From contig DATMBC010000071.1 in NCBI GenBank assembly GCA_035559435.1, forward strand, positions 1-59,456: a DNA stretch of 59,456 nucleotides, read 5' to 3'. The position numbers and the translations under genes were made by a program. This DNA is from a bacterium (GTDB lineage Bacteria > Zixibacteria > MSB-5A5 > WJJR01). Numbering within the stretch: the stretch's first letter is position 1; each line of letters starts with the position of its first letter. The notes below the pieces were generated by a model. The model ran no database searches. It was not told the origin of the DNA and saw nothing but the letters and a program-made list of their open reading frames with translations. Positions 2,491 through 28,897 of this stretch are shown here, one piece after another.

Positions 2491-3230
2491 CGCTCGCCTT
2501 GAAAACGAAGACACCCGTCAGGGATTCGCGCCGGATTGACCAAACGCAGCGCGGCCGTAACCGCGGTACTGCGTGGGATTGGGAGAGGGAGGGACTTACT
2601 TGGACCGTAGATCGGAGCGGATGGAACGTCGATCGTAGAACGGTCACGGCCGCTGCGCCCTGCCGCAGAGGGACCTGCGACCGGACATATGCGCTGCACC
2701 TCCGCAGCACAATCTTCTGAAGACCTGCCTGTCGTTTGAGTCGGGACGGGCCTGCCGCCCCGGTAATGTCGTAAGGCCGGTTCTGCGCCGCATCGAGCCC
2801 CCCAGGGCCCTCGCGCGGCAGACATGCGCAGTTGTTTCCTACCCGGAACTTTGCTCTTGGTTCCAAATGAGGAGAATAAGTTTTGAGTATTTGCGCTGAC
2901 TTCGGTGAAAACGGTGTTCACAGTTCGACCACCTCGCCTCCCTTGGGATGTCCCCATACCTGCTTGCTCTAACCCCTTGATTTTATGGAGTTCAATGGCG
3001 CGTCACTTAATCTGACCGTTTAAGAACAGTTGGCATCTCCCTATCTGTTAGCACCTTGCGCAGGCGTTGTTCACGGATCAAACAGACCTGCGCAACGGCA
3101 GACAACTTGCAATGGCCCATTAACGGCAGGGGAGTGGATCACCGGGTGAGGCGCTCCGACTCCTCGTGGGAGCAAGGCAGGACGAGTGAAGGGAAGCAGG
3201 GATTTCGGTCGCAGAGGGAGGAGTTCGGAG

Positions 3231-4340
3231 ATGTTACCGCAAGCAGGCAACCATCGAATCGCAAACATCCTGTTTGGGATCGCGGTCTTCGCGCTGGCCA
3301 TGGCCCCGTGTGGCCCGGCGTGGGCGCAATTCGCCGGGGGCGGTCTGTCGTCCAACGGCGTCAGCGTCTCGGGGTACTTCGATGTACAGGCGGTCGGACG
3401 CAACGCCGAGCTGGGCAAGAATGACTTCCAGATCGGCCAGTTGGCGGTTGAGTTGTCGTCGGATCTGTCGCGACGGGTGACGGCGGGGATGGAGATCGCC
3501 TACGGTTTCGACGAGAATGTCGCCATCGACGAGGCCTTCGTCGATTGGAACGTTTACCAATGGGATGGCAAGCCGCGGGTCAACCCGCTGGGTACCATCT
3601 CGGCGGGTTTTATGGCGGGGCAGTTTGATGTCCCGTTCGGGCTGGACTGGCGGTCCTATCGCAGTGTCGACCGGCCGCTGGTGTCCATGCCCACGGTCAT
3701 CGCCAACACCCACCGTGGCTGGAACGATCTCGGCGTCGAATTCCACGGCGAGCAGACTTGGGCGAACTGGTCGGTGTTTGCGGTCAACGGCTTCGGCACG
3801 TCGAAGACTCTACGGATGCCGGAGCGGGCCGCGCCGACCGGTTTGGTCGCAGGCGGGAACGATGCCGCCTCCGATGATGTGTTCCCCACCGAGGCCTACG
3901 GCGCGCGCTTCGGGCTGGTGGTCAACGAGCACATCGAGTTCGGAACCTCCTTCGCCGCCGGATACACCGACAACAACGAGCAGGATGAGCGCCTCTTCGG
4001 GTTCGACCTCACCGGCCGGACCGACGAGTTTGAACTGAAGGGAGAGTTCATCAGCCATGAGCGCCACCGGGTCGGCGGGAAGGAAACGGTGTTCGGGTTC
4101 TACGCGCAGGGGATGTACAGCGTCGACGAACACTGGTTTGGCGTGGTGCGCCAGGATGTGTTCAACGCCGACGGCGCGGTGGTGTGGCCGCAGAACGTGG
4201 CGATGACCAACACGCTTCTTTCCACCTCGGCCGGCGCGGGCTACCGCGTCGGCCCCGGCGCGCAGGTGCGCGTTGAGTACCAACTCACCGATGGCGCCAA
4301 CAACGACACGGTGTTCCTCCAGACCGCCGTCGGTTTCTGA
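3231..4340 (+). CDS. Outer-membrane porin-like beta-barrel protein
   Basis: 369-residue exported protein. It has an N-terminal signal peptide (hydrophobic run 'ANILFGIAVFALAMA', cleavage likely after 'AWA'). The rest is amphipathic beta strands with many aromatic-Gly patterns and ends in a C-terminal Phe ('TAVGF'), the usual end of a barrel recognised by the BAM complex. Segments such as 'FDVPFGLDWRSYRS' and 'ANTHRGWNDLGVEF' resemble OprP/phosphate-porin-like or 'porin' annotations in related genomes, but the substrate is unknown. The ATG at 3231 has an AGGGAGGAG ribosome binding site. The open frame can start 45 bases earlier, but that would put a basic tail before the signal peptide. A hairpin terminator candidate follows at 4391. 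Confidence 0.75.
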   Translation: MLPQAGNHRIANILFGIAVFALAMAPCGPAWAQFAGGGLSSNGVSVSGYFDVQAVGRNAELGKNDFQIGQLAVELSSDLSRRVTAGMEIAYGFDENVAIDEAFVDWNVYQWDGKPRVNPLGTISAGFMAGQFDVPFGLDWRSYRSVDRPLVSMPTVIANTHRGWNDLGVEFHGEQTWANWSVFAVNGFGTSKTLRMPERAAPTGLVAGGNDAASDDVFPTEAYGARFGLVVNEHIEFGTSFAAGYTDNNEQDERLFGFDLTGRTDEFELKGEFISHERHRVGGKETVFGFYAQGMYSVDEHWFGVVRQDVFNADGAVVWPQNVAMTNTLLSTSAGAGYRVGPGAQVRVEYQLTDGANNDTVFLQTAVGF

Positions 4341-26313: not shown

Positions 26314-27165
26314 CTATGCCCCCCAGCCCGGCAGGGCGGCGGCTTGCTTGATCCAGGCGGTCAACTGGGCGTCATCGAAATCGTCCTCGTGGATGTCGAT
26401 CCAGCGTGCTTCGGGGCCTGAGCCGCCGGGCGGGACCGGTTGCAGCGATGCGCCCCGGAAGAAGGTCACCTTGACATAGCGCGTGAAGACATGAAACGAC
26501 AGAAACCAGCCCTGCCCGGCAATGCCATAGAACGGGGAGTTCCACCGTACCGCCTTGCGCACGCCGGGGACATGACGATCGATGAGGGCATCGAGACGCC
26601 TACCGATCTCGCGCTTCCAGCCAGGCATGGCGGCGATATAGGCGCGCACCGGCGCGGCGCCGTCGGCTTTGGCGATCTGCGGATTGCCGCCCGTGAGCAG
26701 GCGCGGCCGCTTCACGGTGCGTTGAGACTTCGTTTTCTCGAGCGTCAATTGTGAGTTGGCGGCCAACGCCGCTTTCACCAGCGCCTTGAAAGCGCGCGCA
26801 TCGACCCTCTCCCCTTCGCGGATATCGATCGCCCGGCGTGCATTGCCATCCAGACTGGCGTTGAACAAGCCGGCCGGGTCGGGGAGACTGGCGCCGCGCG
26901 CAAACGTCAGCTTGACGACCTGCTTGTAGGTCTCGCCGGTGCAGACGATCCCGTGATGCGACCAGACAGGCACGCCCATCGGGTTGCTGGGCTTCTTCCA
27001 CTTTCGCTCTTCGATCATCTCCGGGTCGGCCGCGAGGATCAGCGCCCGCATGCGAGCCAGAGTCTCCTCGCGCCAATCCCCGCGGACGGCGGCCTTCCTG
27101 CCGGTCCGTCTGGCGTCAGTTTTCCCTGCGACAGTCGCCGTCCTCTTGTGAGACTTGCCAGCCAT
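26314..27165 (-). CDS. Protein with two tandem DUF1801 domains
   Basis: 283 residues. After a Lys/Arg/Thr-rich start ('MAGKSHKRTATVAGKTDARR'), domain 1 (about 30-140) has 'PMGVPVWSHHGIVCTGETYK' and 'VVKLTFARGASLPDP', with 'FNASLDGNARRAIDIREGER'. Domain 2 (about 165-280) has 'AYIAAMPGWKREIGRRLDAL', 'VRKAVRWNSPFYGIAGQGWF' and 'YVKVTFFRGASLQPV'. Both carry the 'KLTF.RGASL'-type strand, so this is an internal duplication of the DUF1801 fold. Function unknown. ATG 27165 is preceded by GGGGAGAG. The upstream fused VOC gene ends 60 bases away. Confidence 0.86.
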   Translation of the reverse strand: MAGKSHKRTATVAGKTDARRTGRKAAVRGDWREETLARMRALILAADPEMIEERKWKKPSNPMGVPVWSHHGIVCTGETYKQVVKLTFARGASLPDPAGLFNASLDGNARRAIDIREGERVDARAFKALVKAALAANSQLTLEKTKSQRTVKRPRLLTGGNPQIAKADGAAPVRAYIAAMPGWKREIGRRLDALIDRHVPGVRKAVRWNSPFYGIAGQGWFLSFHVFTRYVKVTFFRGASLQPVPPGGSGPEARWIDIHEDDFDDAQLTAWIKQAAALPGWGA

Positions 27166-27225: not shown

Positions 27226-28206
27226 CTACTTCTGCCAGAGGCCGAACTGCAGATCGCCGAGGAAATAGATCGCCCAGGTGCCGGTGTCGCCCTGTTGGGT
27301 CGGACCATAGGCGACCACGCCGCCGGCCGCCTCGGCGTCCTTGATGGCCTTGGCGATGTCGGCAACTTCCAGATAGGTGCGGATGATCGGTTGCTCATGC
27401 TCGGCCAGCGGCGCGCGCACGCCGATCAAACTCCCGTCGGCCGCCTTCGCTACCCGCGCCGCGCCGAGATCGGCCACCGGCGGACCGAAGGACAATCGAT
27501 GAACCCGCTCCAGCGCCGCGCACTGAGCGGCAACGTCACGGCAAACGATCTCCAGATAATGGACACGCATATTCGACTCTCCCCTCTGTGCCGGCCCTAC
27601 GTCCTCCCGGATGGCGCGCAACTTTGTCCACACTTCGGCGGTCTCCGGCTGCGACGACGCGCAAATGAAGACACAGTTCCCGACGGGCATGACGGAGCGC
27701 CAGACCTGAATCTCCATCCGCAGGGTCTGTTCCCTGCCGGTGGTGAATGGCTCGATCCATTTCAATTTACCGTTGTAGGCCGTGACCTCTTCGCCGCCGG
27801 CGCGCTTTTGCGGCGGCGTCGCGGCGTCGACAACAGACATTGTGAACCGGGTCACGTCGAGGACCTTCCCTTTGGACTCGGCCACCGCCTGGGCCAGCCC
27901 GCGGTAGTAGGTCAAAAGCTGGGTCTCCAGCGTGTGTGCATCGGTCGGCTGGTCTCCCGGCAACCAGAAAAGCAGCGCATAGGAGAAGAACGTCGCGGAG
28001 TCGGCGTTCATCCATCCCGGCGCAAAGCGCAATTCTTCGAGGCCGCTCCACTTCATGTCCGGCGCAAACGACGGCGGCAGCGGTATTGTCTCTTTCGCCC
28101 AGCCATCCGGTGTGGGCACAGCAAAAGGCAATTCCGCCGCCTCCTGCGCAAACGCCGCAGCGGCGAGGAGCATGCTGGCAAACAGGACACTGATTCGTGG
28201 CTTCAT
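27226..28206 (-). CDS. Exported protein fused in frame to a VOC (glyoxalase-like) domain
   Basis: 326 residues. Residues 1-20 are a signal peptide ('MKPRISVLFASMLLAAAAFA'). About 21-210 form an unknown domain ('LPFAVPTPDGWAKETIPLPP', 'FTMSVVDAATPPQK', 'RMEIQVWRSVMPVGNCVFIC'). Residues 213-326 are a complete VOC domain ('MRVHYLEIVCRDVAAQCAAL', 'AEHEQPIIRTYLEVADIAKA', 'GTWAIYFLGDLQFGLWQ'). VOC proteins of this type are normally free cytoplasmic proteins of about 114 residues. An internal ATG at 27570 with its own ribosome-site-like AGAGGGGAGAG would give exactly that protein. The fusion may come from loss of a stop codon between two genes, or both forms may be made. Confidence 0.8.
   Translation of the reverse strand: MKPRISVLFASMLLAAAAFAQEAAELPFAVPTPDGWAKETIPLPPSFAPDMKWSGLEELRFAPGWMNADSATFFSYALLFWLPGDQPTDAHTLETQLLTYYRGLAQAVAESKGKVLDVTRFTMSVVDAATPPQKRAGGEEVTAYNGKLKWIEPFTTGREQTLRMEIQVWRSVMPVGNCVFICASSQPETAEVWTKLRAIREDVGPAQRGESNMRVHYLEIVCRDVAAQCAALERVHRLSFGPPVADLGAARVAKAADGSLIGVRAPLAEHEQPIIRTYLEVADIAKAIKDAEAAGGVVAYGPTQQGDTGTWAIYFLGDLQFGLWQK
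27577..27586 (-). promoter_or_regulatory. Internal ribosome-binding-site-like sequence before the VOC part
   Basis: GAGGGGAGAG on the minus strand ends 6 bases before an in-frame ATG (27568-27570) that begins the VOC domain exactly at its first strand. Confidence 0.5.
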
Positions 28207-28528: not shown

Positions 28529-28897
28529 TTACCGGGCGCGTTCCTGGATGAAGCGGATGCAATTGCCGTCTGGATCCTTCACATACATCTCGCGGTTCCC
28601 CCAGGACTGATCGACGGGTCCCGAATCAATCACGACATTCCTGGCGAGCAGTTCTTTGTGCATCGCATCGACGTTTTCGACCGCCAGGTAAACCACGCCG
28701 CCAGACACGCCATCGCCCGGGAAGGACGACAGGTGCAGCCACACGCCCTCGCGCTCGATGACCATGTAACAGGGGTCGGCGCCCGCAAGATCGGGACGCA
28801 TGGCCTGCCGCAACCGGAAACCCAGCTGGTGGCAGTAGAACTGTTCCGCTGCGGCGGAGCCGCTGACATGCAGGACGGGCACAACGTACTTCAGCAC
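28529..28897 (-). CDS. VOC-family (glyoxalase/bleomycin-resistance fold) protein
   Basis: 122-residue cytoplasmic protein of two betaalphabetabetabeta modules. The first strand 'YVVPVLHVSGSAAAEQFYCH' is followed by 'LGFRLRQAMRPDLAGADPCY'. The second module is 'VVYLAVENVDAMHKELLARN', and the last strands are 'REMYVKDPDGNCIRFIQ', the usual C-terminal signature with 'DPDGN'. It resembles bleomycin/fosfomycin-type binding proteins and small glyoxalases, but no activity can be assigned. The stop lies in a repeat-rich stretch; the gene itself is intact. Confidence 0.9.
   Translation of the reverse strand: MLKYVVPVLHVSGSAAAEQFYCHQLGFRLRQAMRPDLAGADPCYMVIEREGVWLHLSSFPGDGVSGGVVYLAVENVDAMHKELLARNVVIDSGPVDQSWGNREMYVKDPDGNCIRFIQERAR

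Follow-up and report, generated by a model that had tools for sequence, protein, structure and literature searches.

An exported domain fused in frame to a VOC domain from a family with many exported members, with a candidate internal start codon at the joint

That bacteria can draw separate products from internal, in-frame start codons is established (PMC10327210; PMC11005335). In the RpnL/RpnS system a single frame contains an internal start at the edge of its C-terminal domain (PMC10327210), an arrangement that recurs in the contig studied here (all 59,456 nt of which are hereafter called the window; it is one of the 106 contigs of a 3.0 Mb draft genome). The short Rpn product has been demonstrated and is an antitoxin, whereas the short product of the window is predicted and would differ from the long one in its location. 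The N-terminal proteoform pairs of Salmonella have in-frame alternative starts in a Shine-Dalgarno (SD)-like context, as in the window, and some of the short forms come without the signal peptide or lipoprotein leader and possibly have a different location (PMC11005335). Those pairs were mapped by ribosome profiling of one species (PMC11005335), whereas the argument made here runs across phyla and has a whole domain as the leader. Among the open-access papers listed, none describes an exported family of VOC proteins that retains an internal start, and none of those on dual location by internal starts, or on exported or lipoprotein VOC proteins, deals with the VOC family described below.

The frame in question runs uninterrupted on the minus strand from 28206 to 27226 and encodes 326 amino acids plus a stop, which bears out the first-pass annotation in describing an in-frame fusion of an exported protein to a complete VOC domain of 114 residues. 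All of its parts lie on that strand. Residues 1-20 (28147..28206) form a signal-peptide-like start, the N-terminus reading MKPRISVLFASMLLAAAAFAQ, which was scored as exported by our home-made rule (a start codon plus a hydrophobic core), with a possible cleavage site, picked by eye, at AFA/QE. The exported domain proper (residues 21-203; 27598..28146), as defined in a 27-member alignment and tentatively of Mog1/PsbP-like fold, is followed by a linker of nine residues, GPAQRGESN (204-212; 27571..27597), and then by the VOC domain, assigned by profile similarity (27226..27570; 114 amino acids plus stop). The joint thus reads LRAIREDV-GPAQRGESN-MRVHYLEIV with no stop in between, and its Met is encoded by an in-frame ATG (27568..27570), a possible start for a short VOC product at a position where start codons are common among exported relatives. 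As had also been proposed, this ATG is preceded by a ribosome-site-like stretch: the purine-rich GAGGGGAGAG (27577-27586) lies 7-16 bases upstream of it. The locus therefore has both the in-frame start and the SD-like site at a domain boundary that are looked for in a gene within a gene. A promoter and terminator scan returned no promoters and one terminator-like site, at 27099 on the opposite strand, fewer than in shuffled sequence. The window also contains a second, separate VOC gene on the same strand (28529-28897), 322 bases upstream of the fusion, which matches Pfam Glyoxalase_7 at 1.3e-16 and, weakly and far under the cut-off, NCBIfam bleomycin-binding models.

VOC proteins make up a large and well-known superfamily. 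The VOC half of the window matches Pfam glyoxalase models only below their cut-offs, and 7 of the 60 family members that we aligned reach Pfam Glyoxalase at 0.001 or better. Searches of the PDB with family profiles matched Rv0577 of Mycobacterium tuberculosis (PDB 3oxh) at 2e-10 and 3.1e-19, the latter placing the C-terminal half within the superfamily. Rv0577, both of whose domains align, gave the best PDB sequence match and is the nearest VOC protein with a solved structure; it has two VOC domains per chain and no fused exported domain, whereas the window has one VOC domain. A model of the whole fusion, of low confidence (mean pLDDT 47.7), gives alternating strands and helices in the VOC half, where the superfamily would have paired beta-alpha-beta-beta-beta modules, and was too poor to be used for a structure search.

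The first-pass annotation had taken the VOC half to be naturally cytoplasmic, a premise that the family tells against: the four nearest relatives of this half bear export leaders, and 32 of the 60 members look exported by the same home-made rule. The alignment (60 rows, 114 columns) comprises the window, three relatives from its class, the two relatives L009 and L010, and 19 and 35 further rows from other phyla, the 35 from L010's phylum including six that were fetched separately; second copies of one place, two partial matches from L010's phylum and weak matches in three genomes (G001, G004, G104) were left out. The VOC domain of the window is 83, 76, 76 and 74% identical to those of L009, L010, L019 and L039, respectively, and in each of these, the only rows at least 74% identical, an export leader stands immediately before the same residue. 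The likeness extends to the position of the export element, directly before the same Met; the difference is that a leader of about 30-45 residues in these relatives is replaced in the window by an exported protein of 200 residues. By our own reading, the leaders of the family include lipoprotein-like ones in L002, L004, L010, L019, L022 and L025, ones with twin arginines and a later Cys in L031, L032, L057 and L065, and Sec-like ones in L003, L042 and L059. On a tree built from 114 columns for 60 rows, many forks of which do not resolve, the export label changes at least 12 times, with 7 of the changes forced by well-supported branches, and the VOC domain of the window groups with the four leader-bearing relatives and with L041 and L052, which are without a leader.

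Several details of these leaders are recorded for their own sake. In L031, L032, L057, L065 and L123, a twin-arginine leader is followed by a Cys, as if the protein were exported folded and then lipidated. In L009 and L039, the position of the lipobox Cys is held by Tyr or Trp (LLTGY, LAAGW), and a lipoprotein leader may there have turned into a plain signal or an anchor. Upstream of the lipoprotein-like VOC gene of L010 lies a second VOC-like sequence spread over two frames (L010:2511-2899 and 2896-3366), whose stop codon is overlapped by the GTG taken as the lipoprotein start.

The exported half belongs to a family that Pfam and NCBIfam models do not recognise. No Pfam model matched the domain of the window at an E-value of 1, the best NCBIfam match stood at 0.14, and across the 27 rows of its alignment (which excludes L091, with a TAG near the domain end, and L100, a fragment) no Pfam or NCBIfam family matched more than two. 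Those 27 rows share 15 invariant residues. Searches of PDB sequences gave nothing convincing, the best match being to a ribosomal protein at 0.013 with three rows and at 0.19 with 27. In a single-sequence model of the domain (mean pLDDT 55), strands and helices follow one another as they do in the Mog1/PsbP group, and in a structural comparison with this low-confidence model the first 24 matches were mostly to that group, with Z scores of 6.3-8.3 over 104-134 residues. The best of them had a Z of 8.3 and an rmsd of 3.3 over 104 aligned residues, although a Z near 8 can reflect a common arrangement, and the best Foldseek E-value was 0.015. The Mog1/PsbP-like fold groups PsbP, DcrB and DUF1795/Eag proteins. 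The exported domain shares with that fold the modelled order of its elements but no sequence match, and its assignment there is tentative.

Relatives of the exported domain are joined to a variety of partners, including a PQQ-type propeller in L093 (Pfam 2.8e-10; a like sequence occurs in L092), DUF5829 in L094 (676-2724, minus strand; Pfam 6.4e-37), where no Met lies near the joint, and, on its N-terminal side, a PDZ domain in L078. To judge from these sequences, the domain is a module prone to fusion with other exported parts, and a genuine fusion in the window is the more plausible for it. In L091 (1501-2028 and on) the exported domain has an in-frame TAG close to its end, followed by a PQQ-like propeller as in L093; either the gene is broken or the sequence contains an error. 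An apparent fusion to an M19 peptidase in L099 was set aside, as it shares 349 identical bases with L100 from the same genome (G810). Past that identical stretch one of the two enters the M19 peptidase and the other stops, which reflects either a duplication and fusion of recent date or a join made during assembly.

Whether orthologues of the fusion are two genes had been posed as a check, and in the other genomes examined the halves are separate. A search of 146 genomes, the window's own included, with the whole protein gave matches in 8, and the window's own genome was the single one in which both halves were covered. Within the class, the VOC profile had hits in 5 of 132 genomes at 1e-10, counting the window's own; it had hits in at least 19 of 347 in the phylum of L009, Acidobacteriota, at 1e-15, and in at least 37 of 343 in that of L010, Planctomycetota, at 1e-25. 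The exported-domain profile had hits in 2 of the 132 (own included), at least 5 of the 347 and at least 21 of the 343. The counts for the two phyla are lower bounds, as many genomes had their first-look candidates scored only in part. The loci of 28 further frames with the exported domain, including some 1.5 kb of flank to either side as far as the contig reached, contained no frame that matched the VOC profile at 1e-3, and 23 of the 28 finish within 20 residues of the domain end. The nine genomes that carry both families never have the two genes side by side, but on different contigs or megabases apart. The two families do share genomes more commonly than expected (6 shared genomes from 37 and 21 in 343, Fisher p 0.017; 3 from 19 and 5 in 347, p 0.0013), figures for which the overlaps were counted by hand and genome size was uncontrolled, and which were given no weight as evidence. 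A plasmid collection searched with the VOC domain gave no matches, viral contigs searched with both profiles gave no relative, and one scan of genome contigs yielded two VOC relatives, L009 and L010. Single-chain fusions throughout the lineage, which would have made this an ordinary domain architecture, were sought and not found, and as far as these sequences go the fusion is lineage-specific.

The fusion is known from one draft genome, and the true genome might instead have two genes, divided by a stop or a frameshift, the open frame being the product of an error in assembly or sequencing. Four of the 11 codons ahead of ATG 27570 are a single substitution away from a stop, and the apparent fusion in L099 may itself be such an artefact. 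Against this, the joint sits mid-contig, at 27.6 of 59.5 kb, with both halves complete, and the SN that precedes the VOC Met is common to the window, L009 and L010. All three thirds of the window also fit the composition of the genome, with a GC content of 0.628-0.654 and a mean tetranucleotide correlation of 0.922-0.927 with it (L009 and L010, for contrast, gave 0.727 and 0.586), and contamination of the contig was rejected on these figures. The reference for them was 12 further stretches of the genome out of 14 retrieved; L101 and L102, shorter than the rest, were omitted. We regard such an error as improbable. The proposal that a stop codon was lost between two genes stood as a possibility, but the sequence singles out no codon for it: because 4 of 11 codons are near-stops, it does not choose between stop loss in tandem genes and a larger rearrangement as the origin of the joint.

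Whether the internal ATG matters was approached through the family. Among the 32 exported rows the first codon of the domain is ATG in 21, GTG in 3, TTG in 1 and another codon in 7, so that a start codon is kept at this position in 25, the window included (29 of 38 with six rows added). Where the first residue is Leu it is written TTG in 3 of 6 cases, against 10.7% in the remainder of the domain (p 0.019), and where it is Val it is GTG in 4 of 5, against 45.7% (p 0.14). On branches this short a kept Met is by itself weak evidence. The pairing to the anti-SD before the 25 kept codons, with a mean of -7.26 kcal/mol, is like that before the starts of 20 non-exported rows (-7.81; p 0.51) and is stronger than that before 429 other internal ATG, GTG or TTG codons (-4.25; p 9e-7), and the purines of the kept rows peak at -12 to -7. 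In the window itself the SD-like pairing beats about 95% of the synonymous recodings of the linker (z -1.80, p 0.048), and 199 of 200 shuffled sequences fold more stably than the mRNA at the joint. Taken alone these figures are weak; they gain weight from the comparison across the family, in which the clade-averaged result is not significant.

The same recoding test, applied to the kept rows after thinning at 70% identity to 15, gave a mean z of -1.15 (p 6.9e-5 to 8.5e-5 against controls), where 235 internal start codons averaged 0.12, 746 other codons 0.05 and 210 leader positions 0.23. Moving the test point by -1 to +3 codons, from where the same stretch can still be reached, gave -0.38 to -0.96, and the other shifts tried gave -0.14 to 0.42. 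When averaged over seven clades (L040, L045, L053, L056 and L062 are kept rows outside them), the signal was -0.66 and not significant (t -1.18). The strongest clades were the twin-arginine rows (-2.12) and L022/L025 (-2.16, near-copies) and the weakest was a single row, L049 (+2.26), while the window's own clade was mixed (L001 -1.71, L009 -4.67, L019 -1.16, L010 +1.71, L039 +1.82). With the added rows included, 21 of 29 rows were negative and the mean z was -0.74. The kept rows that run against the trend include L049, L116 (+2.93), L039, L010 and L053. Exported rows without a start codon are purine-rich too, and the pairing energies of kept and lost rows did not differ significantly (p 0.26). 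The suggestion in the first-pass annotation that two products are made from one frame was therefore upheld in part: it has in its favour the start codons and SD-like stretches kept in the family, and against it the clade-averaged test. Internal initiation is likely in some members of the family, and the site of the window is a predicted one.

Our preferred reading, to which we give a probability of about 0.5, is that the frame encodes an exported VOC protein with an entire exported domain standing in for its leader, probably together with a cytosolic VOC protein started at ATG 27570. A whole exported protein would have taken the place of a VOC export leader, and the full-length product, begun at 28206 and exported through its own signal peptide, would carry the VOC domain out of the cytoplasm, as the lipoprotein and Sec leaders would in the nearest relatives. 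The start codon and ribosome site of the VOC domain would have been retained at the joint, and a second product of 114 amino acids that stays in the cytosol is probable for that reason. We infer export of this product, the folding of both halves, the use of the internal start and any VOC function, as well as the way in which the genes were joined.

It is possible, if on balance doubtful, that the gene yields the full-length, exported two-domain protein alone, and that the ATG and purine run are relics of the start of a VOC gene, persisting because each lineage acquired export recently. The clade-averaged test and the comparison of kept with lost rows, neither of them significant, are in keeping with this, and the fusion in L094 indicates that fusions without an internal start occur. 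Relics would sit less easily with the thinned rows, which exceed their codon controls, with the purine peak, or with the Tat-lipoprotein rows L032, L057 and L065, which differ in their linkers and yet retain the start codon and SD-like run. We consider very improbable the converse, that the short VOC protein alone matters and that the joined frame arose by the recent loss of a stop codon and gives a long product that is useless or degraded. The intact SD-like site and ATG and the weakly structured mRNA at the joint would suit it, but the four nearest relatives export their VOC domains, and the exported half retains its signal peptide with no stop or frameshift, as well as 15 of 15 invariant family residues (an agreement that is true by the definition of invariant).

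For the fusion gene of the window, annotation would list a single product. The analysis has also brought out an exported domain family that Pfam and NCBIfam models leave unrecognised, and that is fused to varied exported partners. Tentatively, the possibility extends to the VOC family as a whole, in which a single gene may supply both the inside and the outside of the cell across at least three phyla, lipoprotein, Tat-lipoprotein, Sec and whole-domain leaders having perhaps been gained and lost repeatedly in front of a kept start and ribosome site. If the internal start is used, the family would be a natural series in which one protein reaches two compartments by several export routes, and it would allow the gain of a leader before an existing start to be tested.
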